Positions 29,191 to 36,326 of a DNA stretch of 64,000 nt are shown here, piece by piece. A model generated the notes under the pieces. The model had not been told where the DNA came from. It did no database searches and saw nothing but the letters and a program-made list of their open reading frames with translations. The stretch's first letter is position 1, and the number at the start of each line of letters is the position of its first letter. Location: contig JAKFYJ010000004.1 in assembly GCA_021730935.1 (NCBI GenBank), forward strand, positions 62,001 through 126,000. Reading direction: 5' to 3'. Made by a program: the position numbers and the translations under genes. This DNA is from Elusimicrobiota bacterium. GTDB lineage: Bacteria > Elusimicrobiota > Elusimicrobia > 2-02-FULL-39-32.

Positions 29191-31367
29191 AAAAACATTT
29201 ATTTATCTTTGCCGCGCTTGCTTTCTCTTCTGCGCTCCTCCGCGCTTCCGAGCCGAGCTCGCAGGTTTATTCCCATTTTCTGAACGCGCTCGTCCTCGAG
29301 AGAAACGGGGAACTGGAACGCGCCCTCTCGGAATACAACAAGTCTCTCGAACTCGATCCCAGGGCCGGCACCATCCTGCGCCAGCGCGCCAACCTTCACC
29401 TCCGCATGGGCAACCCCGAGAAAGCGCTTTCCGACACCCAGAATTATGTCAAAGAGCATCCCAACGATCTCGAATCCCTGAAACTTCTCGCCAACATCTA
29501 TATGATGAAAGGCCAGGCCGAAGGCGCGCGGCTCTCTCTGGAAAAAGTCATCGAGCTTGACCCCAAGGACGCGCAATCCATTCTGGACCTGGCGCTCCTC
29601 CTCATGCAGGACGATGCCGGAGCTTCCGTCAAAGTCCTCGAAAAGCTCATCAAGCTTCAGCCCCAATCCATCGAGGCGCATTATCACCTGGGCCTGGCGT
29701 ATCAAAAACTCGGGCAGGCCGAAAAGTCCAAAGCCGCTTTCGAGAAAGTCATCGCCATTGATCCCTCTTCGCTTCCGTCGCTGTTCCTGCTCGGCCAGAT
29801 GAGCGAGCGCGAAGGCAAAATGTCGGAGGCCGCCCAATATTATGAGTCCGCTCTCGACAAGATGCCCGACAACACTTCGCTCCGCATGCAGCTGCTCACG
29901 ATTTATGCTTCCCGCACTGACCTTGCCGCCGTCGAGCGCCTCCTCGAATATTTCAAAGATGATTCCAACGCTCCCGTGGAAGCCAACCTCTGGCTGGGCG
30001 TGGCCGCCGAGAGCAAAAAAGACTGGGACGGCGCGCTCAAATATTATCTGAAAGCCCAGTCCCAGGCCGACACGCCCGAAATCCACATCCGCCTCGCCTC
30101 CATTTACAGCCACCTCGGCAACGTCAAAGAAACCCTCAAGTCTCTGAACATCCTGATCGAGAAAAATCCCGAGAACCCGCAATATCATTATTTCCTGGGC
30201 CTGGCGTATCTCGACCTCAAAAAGTCGTCCAAAGCCGTCTCGGAATTCGAGCGGGCGATCCGGATCAATCCCAAATTTTCTTCCGCCTATTTTCAGCTCG
30301 GGATCGCCTTTGACCAGCAGAACGACTGGGACAAAGCGGAGAAATCCCTCCGCCAGGCCGTCGCCGTCGATTCCGGCAACGCCTCGGCGTATAACTATAT
30401 CGGCTATACTCTCGCGGACCGCGGCATCAACCTCTTCGAAGCCCGCCGCATGATCGAGCGCGCGCTTGAGCTGGAACACAACAATCCCGCGTTCATCGAT
30501 TCTCTGGGCTGGCTGGACTATCGCGAAAAAAATTATAAACAGGCCCTGATGCATCTGAAATCCGCCGTTGAGCTCGCGAGCGACCCGATCATTTATGAGC
30601 ATCTGGCCGACTGCCAGCGCGATTCCGGAAACCTCTCGGACGCATCTCTGTCTTATGCCAAATCGCTTGAGCTCGATCCCGACAACGCGAAGGTGAAGGA
30701 CAAACTCCAGGCCCTGAACCGGTTCCTGGTCCCCACTTCGCCCGCCCGCAAATTGCTCAAGGCGTTCGAATATCGCCTGCGCCAGGCCACCAACATCTCC
30801 GGCCCGTTTTTTATCAAAGGCAATTTCGGACTCGCTTTCTCCCAGGGCATTTTTTATCTCCGGCGGGAAGATTCTGTTTTAGCGGTTTCTTCAGCGGACT
30901 CTAAAACCGATCTCCGCGTGGACCTGCTCAATTCCGTCATGACGCCCTCCGTGACGCTGAGATACAAATCTTTGCCGTCCGCGCTCAGCATTTTCCCTCC
31001 GGAATTTAAAAAAGAAGTTCCGCAGGAAACAGAAACCGCGCTGGAGACCGTCGCCGCGTTCCTGAACGGATCCATGCTCGCGTCTTTCGATTCTCAGGAA
31101 ACAGCCGTCCAGGAAAAACGGGGAGAGTTCATCTTGACCAACGCCGGGCGGACTCTCACTCTCGACAAAAAACAGGAATCCGTCCGCGAGATTTCGACGC
31201 CTGCCTGCAGGATCGTGATCGACCGCTATAAAATCATGGGCGATGTCGCTTTGCCCGAAACTCTCAAATTCAGCTTCTCGGGCCGCAGTTTTGAAATTCG
31301 ATTCACGGCCCTTTCTCTCGACAAAATCGAGAGCCGAATTTTCAGTGAAAATCCAGGCCCCCGCTAA
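29187..31367 (+). CDS. Exported TPR-repeat protein
   Basis: 726 residues. Signal peptide MKKHLFIFAALAFSSALLRA (cleavage near 20). Residues about 25-520 form at least a dozen tetratricopeptide units, for example GELERALSEYNKSLELDP, GQAEKSKAAFEKVIAIDP, KSSKAVSEFERAIRINP and NLSDASLSYAKSLELDP. The C-terminal 200 residues are beta-rich and not recognised (DLLNSVMTPSVTLRYKS...). Probably a periplasmic or outer-membrane scaffold, perhaps linked to the pilus or envelope assembly. It overlaps both rimI and ispE, so it is embedded in a housekeeping operon. Confidence 0.85.
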   Translation: MKKHLFIFAALAFSSALLRASEPSSQVYSHFLNALVLERNGELERALSEYNKSLELDPRAGTILRQRANLHLRMGNPEKALSDTQNYVKEHPNDLESLKLLANIYMMKGQAEGARLSLEKVIELDPKDAQSILDLALLLMQDDAGASVKVLEKLIKLQPQSIEAHYHLGLAYQKLGQAEKSKAAFEKVIAIDPSSLPSLFLLGQMSEREGKMSEAAQYYESALDKMPDNTSLRMQLLTIYASRTDLAAVERLLEYFKDDSNAPVEANLWLGVAAESKKDWDGALKYYLKAQSQADTPEIHIRLASIYSHLGNVKETLKSLNILIEKNPENPQYHYFLGLAYLDLKKSSKAVSEFERAIRINPKFSSAYFQLGIAFDQQNDWDKAEKSLRQAVAVDSGNASAYNYIGYTLADRGINLFEARRMIERALELEHNNPAFIDSLGWLDYREKNYKQALMHLKSAVELASDPIIYEHLADCQRDSGNLSDASLSYAKSLELDPDNAKVKDKLQALNRFLVPTSPARKLLKAFEYRLRQATNISGPFFIKGNFGLAFSQGIFYLRREDSVLAVSSADSKTDLRVDLLNSVMTPSVTLRYKSLPSALSIFPPEFKKEVPQETETALETVAAFLNGSMLASFDSQETAVQEKRGEFILTNAGRTLTLDKKQESVREISTPACRIVIDRYKIMGDVALPETLKFSFSGRSFEIRFTALSLDKIESRIFSENPGPR

Positions 31368-32220
31368 AGTCAACCTTTATCTCGCGATCCTGGGGCGCCT
31401 CCCCAACGGATATCACGAGCTGGAGACTGTTTTCCACACCGTCAGTCTTTCCGACACCCTTGAGGTGGTTCCGGCGCCGAAAATATCCCTGAAAGTGACC
31501 GGTCCCCAGGTCCCCAAAAATTTCCCCATTCGCCGCGACAACATCGTCTGGCGCGCGGCCGCGGAATTTATAAAGGCGTTCGGCGTCAAAGGCGGCTTGA
31601 AAATTAGCCTCAGGAAAAATATTCCCGTTCAGGCGGGCCTGGGCGGCGGGTCCACGGACGCGGCGGCGGTCCTGACGGCGTGCTCAAAATTGTTCCTAAA
31701 AAAATGCGGAAACCGGGAAAAAGCCGTTTTGCATAAAATCGCCAAGGGGTTGGGGGCCGATGTCCCGTTTTTCCTTGAAGGCGGCTGTGCCGTTGCCGGG
31801 GGGATCGGGGAAAAACTCAAAAAGCTTCCTCCCGCCCGTTTCCATGCCGTCATCGTCAAGCCCAAAATCGGTCTTTCCACCCCGGAGGTCTATGGATGGT
31901 ATGACCAAACCCTGGACGGGGGAAAACCGTTGACTCCGGCGCCTGAAATTCGTAAAATATTGTCTCCGTTAAGGTCCCGGAAACCCTCCGGTGCCTGGGC
32001 GGAATATCTATTTAATTCGTTTGAAGACGTTGTTTTCATGAGAGCGCCGGAAGTTGGGCGGATCAAGTCCGCCCTTATCGCACAGGGCTGCTATGCGGCC
32101 CTCCTTTCCGGATCAGGCTCCGCGCTTTTTGGGTTGGTCAAGTCCAAAGCTGAAGGGGAAAAAATATCCCGCAAGCTTCGTTCCCAAGGATTGAAGGCCT
32201 GGGCAGTCCAGGCCGTTTAG
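31345..32220 (+). CDS. ispE: 4-Diphosphocytidyl-2-C-methyl-D-erythritol kinase
   Basis: 291 residues from GTG 31345, beginning VKIQAPAKVNLYLAILG, the conserved IspE start; GHMP-kinase ATP loop VQAGLGGGSTDAAAV (about 95-109) and the C-terminal SGSGSALFGL. Phosphorylates CDP-methylerythritol in the MEP isoprenoid pathway. The longer frame to 31243 lies in the TPR gene, whose end it overlaps by 23 nt. The order ispE, tRNA-Gln, prs, rplY, pth is also known in Deltaproteobacteria. Confidence 0.93.
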   Translation: MKIQAPAKVNLYLAILGRLPNGYHELETVFHTVSLSDTLEVVPAPKISLKVTGPQVPKNFPIRRDNIVWRAAAEFIKAFGVKGGLKISLRKNIPVQAGLGGGSTDAAAVLTACSKLFLKKCGNREKAVLHKIAKGLGADVPFFLEGGCAVAGGIGEKLKKLPPARFHAVIVKPKIGLSTPEVYGWYDQTLDGGKPLTPAPEIRKILSPLRSRKPSGAWAEYLFNSFEDVVFMRAPEVGRIKSALIAQGCYAALLSGSGSALFGLVKSKAEGEKISRKLRSQGLKAWAVQAV

Positions 32221-32247: not shown

Positions 32248-32520
32248 ATGGAAATCACGGAAGTTCGAGTCAGCGTCAGGAACGAAGAGCGTCTCAAGGC
32301 GTATGTCACGGTGACCTTTGACAATTGTTTCGTGGTCCGGCATGTGAGGGTGGTGAAGACTGAAAAAGGCCTGCTCGTCTCGATGCCGTCTCGGAAACTC
32401 CCGGACGGAACCCACAAAGACATCGCGCACCCGATTTCGCAGGAGTTCCGCAAGAAACTCGAGGACAAAATCCTTGCCGCCTACGAGGAGGAGCTGAAAA
32501 AATCTTCGGGGGTGGTGTAA
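32248..32520 (+). CDS. spoVG: SpoVG family RNA/DNA-binding regulator
   Basis: 90 residues. MEITEVRVSVRNEERLKAYVTVTFDNCFVVR and the helix motif SMPSRKLPDGTHKDIAHPI are diagnostic. SpoVG binds nucleic acids and tunes gene expression in many bacteria. GAGGAGG lies 6 nt before the ATG. The last five codons and the TAA stop (32518-32520) are inside the tRNA-Gln gene, with the stop in its D-loop. As in Bacillus, glmU, prs, ctc-type rplY and pth follow. Confidence 0.95.
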   Translation: MEITEVRVSVRNEERLKAYVTVTFDNCFVVRHVRVVKTEKGLLVSMPSRKLPDGTHKDIAHPISQEFRKKLEDKILAAYEEELKKSSGVV

Positions 32521-32576
32521 TGGTAACACAGGAGACTTTGGATCTCCCATTCATGGTTCGAGTCCATGCCCCCGAG
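32506..32576 (+). tRNA. tRNA-Gln (anticodon UUG)
   Basis: 71 nt without encoded CCA. Acceptor stem 32506-32512 (TCGGGGG) pairs with 32569-32575 (CCCCCGA); D-stem GTG/CAC with loop TAATGGTAA; anticodon arm GGAGA-CTTTGGA-TCTCC with TTG at 32538-32540; variable loop CATT; T arm CATGG-TTCGAGT-CCATG; discriminator G, correct for glutamine. It overlaps the 3' end of spoVG by 15 nt and precedes glmU by 14 nt, so it is cut from a protein-coding transcript. Confidence 0.95.
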
Positions 32577-32590
32577 CTTTATTCGTCATT

Positions 32591-33982
32591 TTGAATAATT
32601 TTTCCGTATTGGTTTTGGCCGCGGGCGAAGGCACGCGGATGAAGTCTCTGACCCCGAAAGTCCTGCACAAGGTTTCGGAGGTTCCGATCCTTATTCGGGT
32701 CCTGAAAACCGCGCAGGCGCTCCATCCCAAATCCGTGGGCGTCATCATCGGAAGCGGAGCGAAAGAAGTTCAGGCCGCGGTGGGCGACGCCAAAGGCCTG
32801 GAATGGATCTTTCAAAAAGAACGCAAAGGTTCGGGCCACGCGGTCAAGTCGGCCTCAGCCTGGATCAGGAAACACGCGGCGAAATCGTCGGACCTCATGA
32901 TCCTCTGCGGCGACACCCCGCTCTTGAAAGCGGAAACGCTCCGGGCGTTCCGAGAGGCGCATCTGACGGCGGGAAATGCCGCCACCGTGCTTTCGGCCAA
33001 GATGGACAACCCTTTTGGATATGGAAGAATCGTCAAGGATGATCTCGGGCGCGTAAAAAAAATTGTCGAAGAAAAAGACGCTTCTTCAGCCGAAAAAAAT
33101 ATCCATGAAGTGAATTCGGGCGTTTATTGTTTCAGGGCCGAAAAGATTTTGGAAGCATTGCCGCGAATAAAGAACGAAAACGCGAAGAAGGAATATTATC
33201 TGACGGACGCGATAGAGATTTTGGATAAAGGCGGGGACCGTGTGGGCTCCGTGGTCATGAGACCCGGGTCCCTCGAAACCGTGGGCGTCAACTCGCGGGT
33301 GGAGCTGGCCGCGGCCGAAGCGCAGGTCCAGAAAGAAATTTCGGAGCGCCATATGTTGGAGGGCGTCACGATTTTGAATCCAGGATTCACCTTCATCGGC
33401 CCTGAAGTGAAGATCGGGAAAGACACGGTGATTTTGCCCGGCACGATGATTTCAGGAAAAACCGTCATCGGCGAAAACTGCAAGATCGGGCCCAACGCCT
33501 ATATCGAAGACTCAACGATTGCGAACGGAGCGGAAATCCGGGCCTCATTTGTTTATGGGGCCACCATAGACGAAAGCGTGAAGATCGGGCCGTTCAGCCA
33601 CATCCGCCAGGGCACGCATGTGAAGGCCGGGGCGCGTGTGGGCAATTTTTCGGAAGTGAAAAAGTCCGTCATCGGCAAGGGCTCCAAGGTTTCGCATTTG
33701 AGCTATATCGGCGACTGCGAAGTGGGGGACGAGGTCAATGTTGGGGCCGGAGTCATCACCTGCAACTATGACGGCGTGAACAAGCACAAGACGGTGATCG
33801 GCAAAAAAACTTTCGTCGGGTCCAACGTGAATTTGGTGGCGCCAGTCGTGGTCGGAGAAGAAAGCGTGATCGGAGCCGGGTCCACCATCACGGAAGACGT
33901 CGCGTCTCATTCGCTCGCTTTAGCCAGGCCCTATCAGATCGTGAAAAAAGATTGGGTAAAAAAGAAAAAGGGGAAAAATTAA
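32591..33982 (+). CDS. glmU: Bifunctional UDP-N-acetylglucosamine pyrophosphorylase / glucosamine-1-phosphate acetyltransferase
   Basis: 463 residues from TTG 32591 (14 nt after the tRNA). N-terminal uridylyltransferase VLVLAAGEGTRMKS (about 6-19), GDTPLL, EVNSGVYCF; C-terminal left-handed beta-helix of hexapeptide repeats from about 250 with the acetyltransferase motif ITCNYDGVNKHKT (catalytic His) and GSNVNLVAPV. Makes UDP-GlcNAc for peptidoglycan and LPS. Stop overlaps prs start (TAATG). Confidence 0.94.
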   Translation: MNNFSVLVLAAGEGTRMKSLTPKVLHKVSEVPILIRVLKTAQALHPKSVGVIIGSGAKEVQAAVGDAKGLEWIFQKERKGSGHAVKSASAWIRKHAAKSSDLMILCGDTPLLKAETLRAFREAHLTAGNAATVLSAKMDNPFGYGRIVKDDLGRVKKIVEEKDASSAEKNIHEVNSGVYCFRAEKILEALPRIKNENAKKEYYLTDAIEILDKGGDRVGSVVMRPGSLETVGVNSRVELAAAEAQVQKEISERHMLEGVTILNPGFTFIGPEVKIGKDTVILPGTMISGKTVIGENCKIGPNAYIEDSTIANGAEIRASFVYGATIDESVKIGPFSHIRQGTHVKAGARVGNFSEVKKSVIGKGSKVSHLSYIGDCEVGDEVNVGAGVITCNYDGVNKHKTVIGKKTFVGSNVNLVAPVVVGEESVIGAGSTITEDVASHSLALARPYQIVKKDWVKKKKGKN

Positions 33983-34986
33983 TGTCTACGATTGTGGTCG
34001 AAAAATCGCCCGCTAAACTCAAAAAACCCGCTCCTCAGCCGGACCCGGGCCTGAAAATTTTTTCGGGCAACTCCAACCTGCCTCTGGCCGAAGAGATCTG
34101 CTCGATTTTGAACCTGCCGCTCGGGAAAGCCCATGTGGGCCGATTCCCCGACGGTGAGTGCGAAGTGAAGATTGAAGAAAATGTCCGCGGGGCGGATTGT
34201 TTCGTGATCCAGCCGACCTCTTTTCCTGCCAACGACAATTTGATGGAACTCCTTTTGATTATGGACGCCTTGAAACGCGCCAGCGCCAACCGCATCACTC
34301 CCGTTTTGCCTTATTATGGATATTCCAGGCAGGACCGCAAAGCCGAGCCCCGCGTTCCCATTTCTGCCAAGCTCGTCGCAAACTTGATCGGCGCCGCCGG
34401 AGCCGACCGCGTGCTCACCATGGACCTTCATGCCGGACAAATTCAGGGATTTTTTGACATCCCCGTGGACCATCTTTATGCGAACCCCGTCATCATCGAT
34501 TATTTCAAGAAGAAACCTTTCGTCGTCGACAAAGAGCCCCTCGTCGTCGTGTCTCCGGACGCGGGCGGCGTGGAAAGAGCGCGGGCATTCGCAAAACGCC
34601 TGGGCGCGGAACTTGCTGTTGTGAACAAGCGCCGCATTTCTCCCAATGAAGCCGCCGTCATGAGCATCATCGGCGACATCAAGGGCAAAAATGTCATCAT
34701 CATCGATGACATCGTGGACACGGCCGGAACTCTCTGCAAAGCCATTGAAGCGCTCCACAAAGAAGGCGCCAAGAAAATTTATGCCAGCTGCGCTCACGCC
34801 ATTTTGGCCGGGCCCGCCATCGAGCGCTTGAGCCATGTTCCCATCGAAGAGTTGGTCGTCACCAACTCCATCCCCGTAAACCAAGCCAAACCCAAATATC
34901 TCACCGTGCTTTCCGTCGGCCGTCTGCTTGCGGAAGCCATCAAGAGGATCCATTCCGGGTCTTCGGTGAGCGAACTTTTTGTATAA
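33982..34986 (+). CDS. prs: Ribose-phosphate pyrophosphokinase
   Basis: 334 residues from ATG 33982. The first 25 residues (Lys/Pro-rich, SPAKLKKPAPQPDP) are an extension not present in typical PRPP synthases; the core starts at LKIFSGNSNLPLAEEI. Seen: ATP site RQDRKAEPRVPISAK, flexible loop, DLHAGQIQGFF, and PRPP loop VIIIDDIVDTAGTL. Supplies PRPP for the pur and pyr genes at 39296-51762. Overlaps glmU stop by 1 nt. Confidence 0.95.
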   Translation: MSTIVVEKSPAKLKKPAPQPDPGLKIFSGNSNLPLAEEICSILNLPLGKAHVGRFPDGECEVKIEENVRGADCFVIQPTSFPANDNLMELLLIMDALKRASANRITPVLPYYGYSRQDRKAEPRVPISAKLVANLIGAAGADRVLTMDLHAGQIQGFFDIPVDHLYANPVIIDYFKKKPFVVDKEPLVVVSPDAGGVERARAFAKRLGAELAVVNKRRISPNEAAVMSIIGDIKGKNVIIIDDIVDTAGTLCKAIEALHKEGAKKIYASCAHAILAGPAIERLSHVPIEELVVTNSIPVNQAKPKYLTVLSVGRLLAEAIKRIHSGSSVSELFV

Positions 34987-35018
34987 ACACAATAAACAAA
35001 GGAAATAGGTAAACTCAA

Positions 35019-35771
35019 ATGCAAACAGTAACCTTAGAAGCTCAAACCAGAGAATCCCTCACGCAGGGAAAAATCAACGATCTCCGCAGGTCCGGGGCCA
35101 TCCCCGCCGTCCTTTATGGAGCGAGCTCGAAAAAAGGAGAGAAGAACGCTCTCCTCCACATCAATGAAAAGATTTTCATGAAGCTTCTTCAGAAAGAGGG
35201 CGCGAACGTGCTTTTGGAGCTCCACATGGGTTCCGACAAAACGAACGCCGTCATCAAGGAAGTTCAGCGCGATTATGTCACGCGGAAACTCATCCACGTC
35301 GATTTTCAGCGCGTGGACATGACCAAGAAACTCGAAGTGAGCGTGCCTCTGCACCTCGTCGGCGAAGCCCCGGGCGTCAAACTCCACGGCGGCATCCTGG
35401 AACACATCACCCGCGAAGTGCGCGTGAGCTGTTTGCCGAAAGACATCCCTCACCAGATCGACATTGACATTTCCAAACTGGACATCGGCCACGGCATCAA
35501 TGTGGCGGACTTGCCCAAGCTGGACGGCGTGCAGATCTTGACCGACGCGCACCAGCTGGTTGCCAACGTGGTTGCTCCGACGGAACTTGAAGAAGTCGCC
35601 GCCACAACCGCGGTCGGCGCCGCAGAGCCCGAAGTGATCCTGAAGGGCAAGAAACCCGAAGAAGGCGAAGAAGGAGCCGCCGCCCCTGCCAAGGGAGCCG
35701 CACCCGCCAAGGGCGCAGCCCCTGCCGCTGGAGCCAAAGGCGCCGCTCCAGCCGCTCCGGCCAAGAAATAA
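35019..35771 (+). CDS. rplY: 50S ribosomal protein L25, CTC/TL5 type
   Basis: 250 residues. Two-domain L25 (CTC family): QTRESLTQGKINDLRRSGAIPAVLYG binds 5S rRNA, then the TL5 beta domain. The last 30-35 residues are a low-complexity Ala/Pro/Lys/Gly tail (AAPAKGAAPAKGAAP-type), common in this family. AAGGA lies upstream of the ATG. Member of the prs-ctc-pth set. Confidence 0.94.
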   Translation: MQTVTLEAQTRESLTQGKINDLRRSGAIPAVLYGASSKKGEKNALLHINEKIFMKLLQKEGANVLLELHMGSDKTNAVIKEVQRDYVTRKLIHVDFQRVDMTKKLEVSVPLHLVGEAPGVKLHGGILEHITREVRVSCLPKDIPHQIDIDISKLDIGHGINVADLPKLDGVQILTDAHQLVANVVAPTELEEVAATTAVGAAEPEVILKGKKPEEGEEGAAAPAKGAAPAKGAAPAAGAKGAAPAAPAKK

Positions 35772-35774
35772 GTT

Positions 35775-36326
35775 TTGGCTATCCGCTTCATCATCGGGCT
35801 CGGGAATCCCGGGGTGAAGTTTGAGGACACGCCTCACAACCTGGGGCGCGCGTTGGTGGAAGGCATCGCCAGAGCGCAAAAACTTTCCTGGAACGAGGAG
35901 GGCTCATTCTTGAAAACCAAGAGTGAACCCTCCTTCGTTATTTTAAAGACCTTCATGAACAATTCCGGCGCCGCTGTCCGTGACCTTCTCCAAAAATCGG
36001 GCTGTTCGTCAGAAGAAATCCTCGTCTGTTATGACGATTTCGATATTCCGGTTGGAAGCCTCCGCATCCGCAAGAAGGGAAGCGCCGGCACCCACAACGG
36101 CATGCGAAGCATCACCGAAATCCTCGCCACCGAAAATTTCCCCCGCCTAAGACTCGGCATCGGCCCCGCCTCCAAAAGCGAAGACCTTAAAGACTATGTT
36201 CTGCGTCCCATCTCCAAATCCCAGCAGAAAGAATATGAAGCCATGCTGGATCGCGCCTCGCAGGCGATAGAAACCATAACAAAAGAGGGGCTAGAAAAAG
36301 CGATGAATGGGTTTAATTCAAAGTAA
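35775..36326 (+). CDS. pth: Peptidyl-tRNA hydrolase
   Basis: 183 residues from TTG 35775, 3 nt after rplY. FIIGLGNPGVKFEDTPHN with the catalytic His (in place of usual T-R-H-N, here T-P-H-N), LKTFMNNSG (usual KPxTYMNxSG), and YDDFDIPVGSLRIRKKGSAGTHNGMRSI with the catalytic Asp and His. Several family-conserved positions are varied, but all catalytic residues are there. Releases peptides from stalled peptidyl-tRNA. Last gene of the conserved block; the following DNA is AT-rich and foreign-looking. Confidence 0.93.
   Translation: MAIRFIIGLGNPGVKFEDTPHNLGRALVEGIARAQKLSWNEEGSFLKTKSEPSFVILKTFMNNSGAAVRDLLQKSGCSSEEILVCYDDFDIPVGSLRIRKKGSAGTHNGMRSITEILATENFPRLRLGIGPASKSEDLKDYVLRPISKSQQKEYEAMLDRASQAIETITKEGLEKAMNGFNSK

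Follow-up and report, generated by a model that had tools for sequence, protein, structure and literature searches.

The window analysed here is a stretch of 64,000 nucleotides from a draft genome of an Elusimicrobiota bacterium (2.7 Mb in 96 contigs). On its + strand, it carries the genes ispE, spoVG, tRNA-Gln(UUG), glmU, prs, rplY and pth, in this order (Table 1). The spoVG product matches its protein family over the full length of the profile (positions 1-82 of 82 of PF04026), and ispE is the upstream neighbour of spoVG in relatives too. The spoVG gene terminates 15 bases inside the next gene, tRNA-Gln, which lies on the same strand. With a TAA codon at 32518-32520 contained in a tRNA that spans 32506-32576, this is a sense overlap of the selB/selC type. 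An earlier note on this DNA, made from the letters alone, had described five spoVG codons plus the stop within the tRNA and had placed the stop in the D-loop. The overlap itself is as described, but the shared 15 nt hold four sense codons followed by TAA. Moreover, only tRNA nt 14-15 of the stop codon belong to the D-loop, of which they are the first two bases, whereas nt 13 is the last base of the D-stem.

Table 1. Features of the spoVG-tRNA-Gln region and of a second overlap in the same genome. Positions are those of the window unless stated otherwise.
Feature	Position	Strand	Basis and remarks
ispE (CDP-ME kinase, GHMP kinase)	31348..32220	+	ORF; Pfam GHMP_kinases_N and GHMP_kinases_C; start putative
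spoVG, 90 aa	32248..32520	+	ORF; Pfam PF04026, 111.5 bits, E 2.2e-32
tRNA-Gln(UUG), CCA not encoded	32506..32576	+	ARAGORN 32506-32577; Rfam tRNA 62.5 bits; predicted fold
15-nt overlap, tRNA nt 1-15 = TCG GGG GTG GTG TAA (SGVV, stop)	32506..32520	+	sequence; same offset in 14 species
spoVG stop codon TAA = tRNA nt 13-15	32518..32520	+	sequence
predicted RNase P cut, coinciding with a spoVG codon boundary	32505/32506	+	inferred from the tRNA 5' end
glmU	32591..33982	+	ORF; NTP-transferase and hexapeptide domains; TTG start likely
prs, rplY (L25/TL5), pth	33982..36326	+	ORFs; Pfam; remainder of the presumed operon
GIY-YIG ORF	990-1313 of L263 (contig C18:39200-41741)		
tRNA-Ala	1230-1303 of L263 (contig C18:39200-41741)		

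The tRNA is the only one identified by ARAGORN in the window (Gln, anticodon TTG, 32506-32577, + strand). It scores well above the gathering score of the Rfam tRNA model (62.5 bits at 32506-32576 versus 29). Its acceptor, D, anticodon and T stems are all found in the minimum-energy fold, whether the tRNA is folded alone or together with 60 nt of spoVG on its 5' side. The view of the earlier note that this is a well-formed tRNA-Gln(UUG), for which ARAGORN had been named as a check, is thus borne out by the call, the Rfam score and the predicted fold. A pseudogene is ruled out by the first two.

The supply of this tRNA was also considered in other genomes that carry the overlap. Using the tRNA as a query, no other tRNA-Gln(UUG) was found in five of them (G101, G059, G040, G042 and G086), the search yielding only tRNA-Gln(CUG) besides it. 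All five belong to the same family (f8), and one of them, G101, is a single-contig genome. Decoding of CAA would need a UUG anticodon. Since no second copy was found in these five genomes, the overlapped tRNA must be matured there. The window's genome has one further tRNA-Gln(UUG), on the small contig C75 (L261, 6841 bases), where it forms part of a tRNA array. Some 27 tRNA genes or more are packed together on this contig, next to reading frames that, by eye, resemble a macro-domain protein, an RtcB-type RNA ligase and an HNH endonuclease. Contig C75 could represent a mobile element, or else be a stray sequence.

In order to place the overlap in its phylum, the spoVG locus was taken from 92 Elusimicrobiota genomes and the distance from the spoVG stop to tRNA-Gln was measured. 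A tRNA-Gln is found downstream of spoVG, on the same strand, in 78 of the 92 genomes. The stop lies inside this tRNA in 14 of these 78 loci, and the overlap is then always the same 15 nt. The 14 species concerned belong to two families, f1, which is that of the window (genome G000) and also includes G004, and f8, with G086 and 11 genomes of the genus g32. Named public assemblies are found among them (Elusimicrobia bacterium GWA2_66_18, L151; further named MAGs, L154 and L163). In 28 other loci, the stop precedes the tRNA by 0-15 nt, which makes the overlap the end of a continuous range; in the remaining loci, the stop is farther away. Thus, as to whether the overlap is conserved in related genomes, which the earlier note had proposed to examine, the answer is mixed: the offset is identical in 14 species, but in other relatives spoVG has its own stop, upstream of the tRNA. 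Two genomes of the window's own genus (G001 and G002) are uninformative on the overlap, as they gave no match for the spoVG-tRNA region and no convincing glmU. In G003, the contig starts 12 nt ahead of the tRNA and the end of spoVG is unreadable. Contigs begin or end near the spoVG-tRNA-Gln junction in several loci (L031 from G004, L038 from G018, L077 from G036, L078 from G033 and L251 from G003), which limits the readable sequence there.

The constancy of the offset does not call for any special selection, because only one frame of the tRNA has a stop. In the tRNA of the window, frame 1 alone meets one (TAA, nt 13-15), frames 2 and 3 being open to the end. Consequently, a spoVG gene that loses its own stop in frame 1 is terminated immediately, in the D-arm, whereas either of the remaining frames would lead it through the whole tRNA. 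In g32, pairwise differences among six near genomes over the 27 nt preceding the tRNA amount to 14, 17 and 37 at the three codon positions, and the same third-position bias is seen over the 105 nt further upstream (115, 100 and 282), although the pairs compared are not independent, which makes these counts supporting evidence rather than a test. Such a bias is expected if the tail of spoVG before the tRNA is translated.

The history of the overlap was followed on a tree built by a quick method from the proteins encoded by ispE, spoVG and glmU (79 rows, many of them partial). This tree requires at least six changes between the overlapping and non-overlapping states, and it does not distinguish gain from loss. 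The simplest reading would be several gains (in f1, in G086 and in g32) and two losses within g32 (one in G075, the other in the group G048/G044/G054). In this genus, the overlap is present in 11 of 15 genomes, over a sizeable divergence; among the relatives compared, G075, G048, G044 and G054 are without it. Compared with its close relatives that keep the overlap, G075 has a small insertion that brings in a stop just before the tRNA. As judged from these comparisons, the overlap is labile, yet it persists through much of g32, where its retention might be longer than expected for a purely accidental state. Gain and loss among close relatives show that the coupling of SpoVG output to processing of the tRNA, suggested in the earlier note, is dispensable.

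The order spoVG then tRNA-Gln is, by its distribution, an ancient arrangement shared by many phyla. Outside Elusimicrobiota, tRNA-Gln(UUG) is found close behind spoVG, without overlap, in the majority of the named loci inspected (Nitrospirota, Treponema, Bdellovibrionales, Deltaproteobacteria, KSB1, Zixibacteria, Calditrichota and others), and none of these named loci showed an overlap. In one of them, from a Calditrichaeota bacterium (L180), the spoVG stop abuts tRNA-Gln with zero bases between, one step short of overlap.

It is probable that spoVG and the tRNA are carried by one transcript. A consensus scan detected no sigma-70-type promoter between the spoVG start and the tRNA, with the reservation that promoters of Elusimicrobiota may differ from this consensus. 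Two promoter-like sites were found in the region, for 1.7 expected, which is the level of chance, and the counts from the promoter and terminator scans are altogether near chance. That no promoter is seen inside spoVG fits co-transcription, without being a proof of it.

Taken together, these data lead us to favour, with reasonable though not full confidence, a tolerated compaction of an old operon joining spoVG and the tRNA, with a competition between translation and processing that would be cleared by tmRNA. An evolved switch is most likely the lesser candidate. In the ancient operon, tRNA-Gln(UUG) would have stood directly 3' of spoVG. In several lineages of Elusimicrobiota, the old spoVG stop would then have been lost and replaced by the in-frame TAA of the tRNA D-arm (nt 13-15). 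Ribosomes reaching this TAA would occupy the 5' portion of the tRNA, which would thereby stay unfolded. Once the ribosomes are gone, the tRNA would fold and RNase P would cut at 32505/32506, giving rise to the mature tRNA. The cut would leave a non-stop spoVG RNA whose last codon is complete, and the life of the spoVG mRNA would be over. Late ribosomes on the cut RNA would be released by tmRNA and SmpB. The steps that we infer are the joint transcript, the cut by RNase P, the competition and the rescue of ribosomes. It should be noted that tmRNA is present in the seven overlap genomes examined for it (G000, G004, G101, G059, G040, G042 and G086) and that SmpB is present in G000, the one genome searched for SmpB.

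According to this scheme, translation and tRNA maturation would compete in time, each transcript yielding some SpoVG and then one tRNA. The claim that one transcript cannot give both an intact spoVG mRNA and a mature tRNA therefore holds at any one moment, but not over time, as the transcript may be translated many times and then cut. The same conflict is probably not confined to the overlap, because in the 28 loci where the stop lies within 15 nt of the tRNA a terminating ribosome would face much the same steric problem; the overlap would thus be one step further along a common arrangement. Excision of the tRNA would also cut glmU-prs-rplY-pth off from ispE-spoVG, as had been pointed out. This is correct, but it applies wherever a tRNA lies within an operon, the relatives without overlap included. 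The putative TTG start of glmU is only 14 nt 3' of the tRNA, with no obvious Shine-Dalgarno sequence in the interval 32577-32600. With a start so close behind the tRNA, the glmU leader would be very short once the tRNA is excised.

Alternatively, the tRNA may be produced mostly from a promoter of its own inside spoVG, in which case the overlap would hardly affect either product. A consensus scan could miss promoters in Elusimicrobiota. However, no sigma-70-type site is seen from the spoVG start to the tRNA and the adjacency of spoVG and tRNA-Gln across phyla suits co-transcription, so that we regard an internal promoter as unlikely.

It is equally unlikely, in our opinion, that selection maintains the overlap as a regulatory device, in which heavy translation of spoVG would shield the tRNA from RNase P and light translation would let the tRNA mature and the spoVG mRNA be destroyed, thereby tying the two levels together, an idea put forward for selB/selC. 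The long retention of the overlap in g32, the identical offset each time, the presence in five relatives of a tRNA that is essential and single-copy, and the availability of tmRNA are all in keeping with such a device. Nevertheless, the sequence of the tRNA is enough to account for the fixed offset. Most relatives are without the overlap and, on the simplest reading of the tree, it was lost at least twice in g32, which argues against a needed switch. Feedback through Gln codons in spoVG was also considered and rejected: the gene of the window has a single Gln codon, CAG, so that no control through glutamine decoding is evident. A variant restricted to the lineages that keep the overlap is that finishing ribosomes hold their only tRNA-Gln(UUG) unprocessed, and that falling translation frees the tRNA and makes the spoVG mRNA a substrate of tmRNA. 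Such a translation-set switch would couple SpoVG output to how much of an essential elongator tRNA is available; we consider it unlikely as well. Finally, an assembly or sequencing error that deleted an upstream spoVG stop might be suspected in a draft genome of 96 contigs, but it is extremely improbable and, like a local mutation, is ruled out by the recurrence of the offset in independent genomes, including L151, L154 and L163.

A comparable situation is known for selC, the gene of tRNA-Sec, which is nested in selB or partly overlaps it in Alpha- and Gammaproteobacteria and in Nitrospirae (Mukai, 2021; PMC8124441). In Dyella and Luteibacter, the selB stop lies within the tRNA at a fixed place (nt 46-48), and close relatives have lost the overlap. 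It was hypothesized that the selB mRNA is left without a stop when the tRNA is processed, and that the protein level is lowered as a result (PMC8124441). The locus studied here is not selB/selC itself, since its genes are spoVG and tRNA-Gln, but it is the same kind of arrangement. In both cases, a protein gene runs at its 3' end into the tRNA gene that follows on the same strand, and the position of the stop is shared by several species, while relatives have lost the overlap. However, SelB acts together with tRNA-Sec, which it binds, whereas no connection of SpoVG with tRNA-Gln is known; the present stop, at nt 13-15, also falls in a tRNA of the ordinary elongator kind. Regulation is a proposal in both systems.

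Overlaps of protein genes with tRNAs also occur in animal mitochondria, as illustrated by a tRNA-Lys within cox1 of Armadillidium vulgare (cited in PMC8124441). There too, an intact mRNA and an excised tRNA are mutually exclusive on one transcript. However, mitochondrial genomes are extremely compact as compared with the 2.7 Mb bacterial genome considered here. Moreover, mitochondria can complete a stop codon by addition of A residues, and no sign of such a completion is seen in the spoVG/tRNA-Gln case. In E. coli, operons such as tyrU-tufB and secG-leuU mix mRNA and tRNA. As proposed here, a tRNA is excised from a transcript that also bears a protein gene, but in these operons the tRNA does not contain the stop codon.

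In the open-licence literature searched, an overlap of spoVG with tRNA-Gln was not found described. The few recorded bacterial cases of a protein gene ending in a tRNA gain here one with an ordinary elongator tRNA and a protein that is not its partner, in a state that arose or vanished several times within one phylum. If translation and RNase P do compete, this operon would provide a natural system in which to measure the competition, because overlapping and non-overlapping versions of it coexist. A second sense overlap was observed in the genome of the window, where the frame of a GIY-YIG nuclease (PF01541, E 3.1e-17) reads through an entire tRNA-Ala(CGC) and stops just past it (Table 1). As judged by eye, most of the remaining open frames running into tRNAs of this genome look like chance ORFs, the GIY-YIG frame being the one scanned with Pfam.
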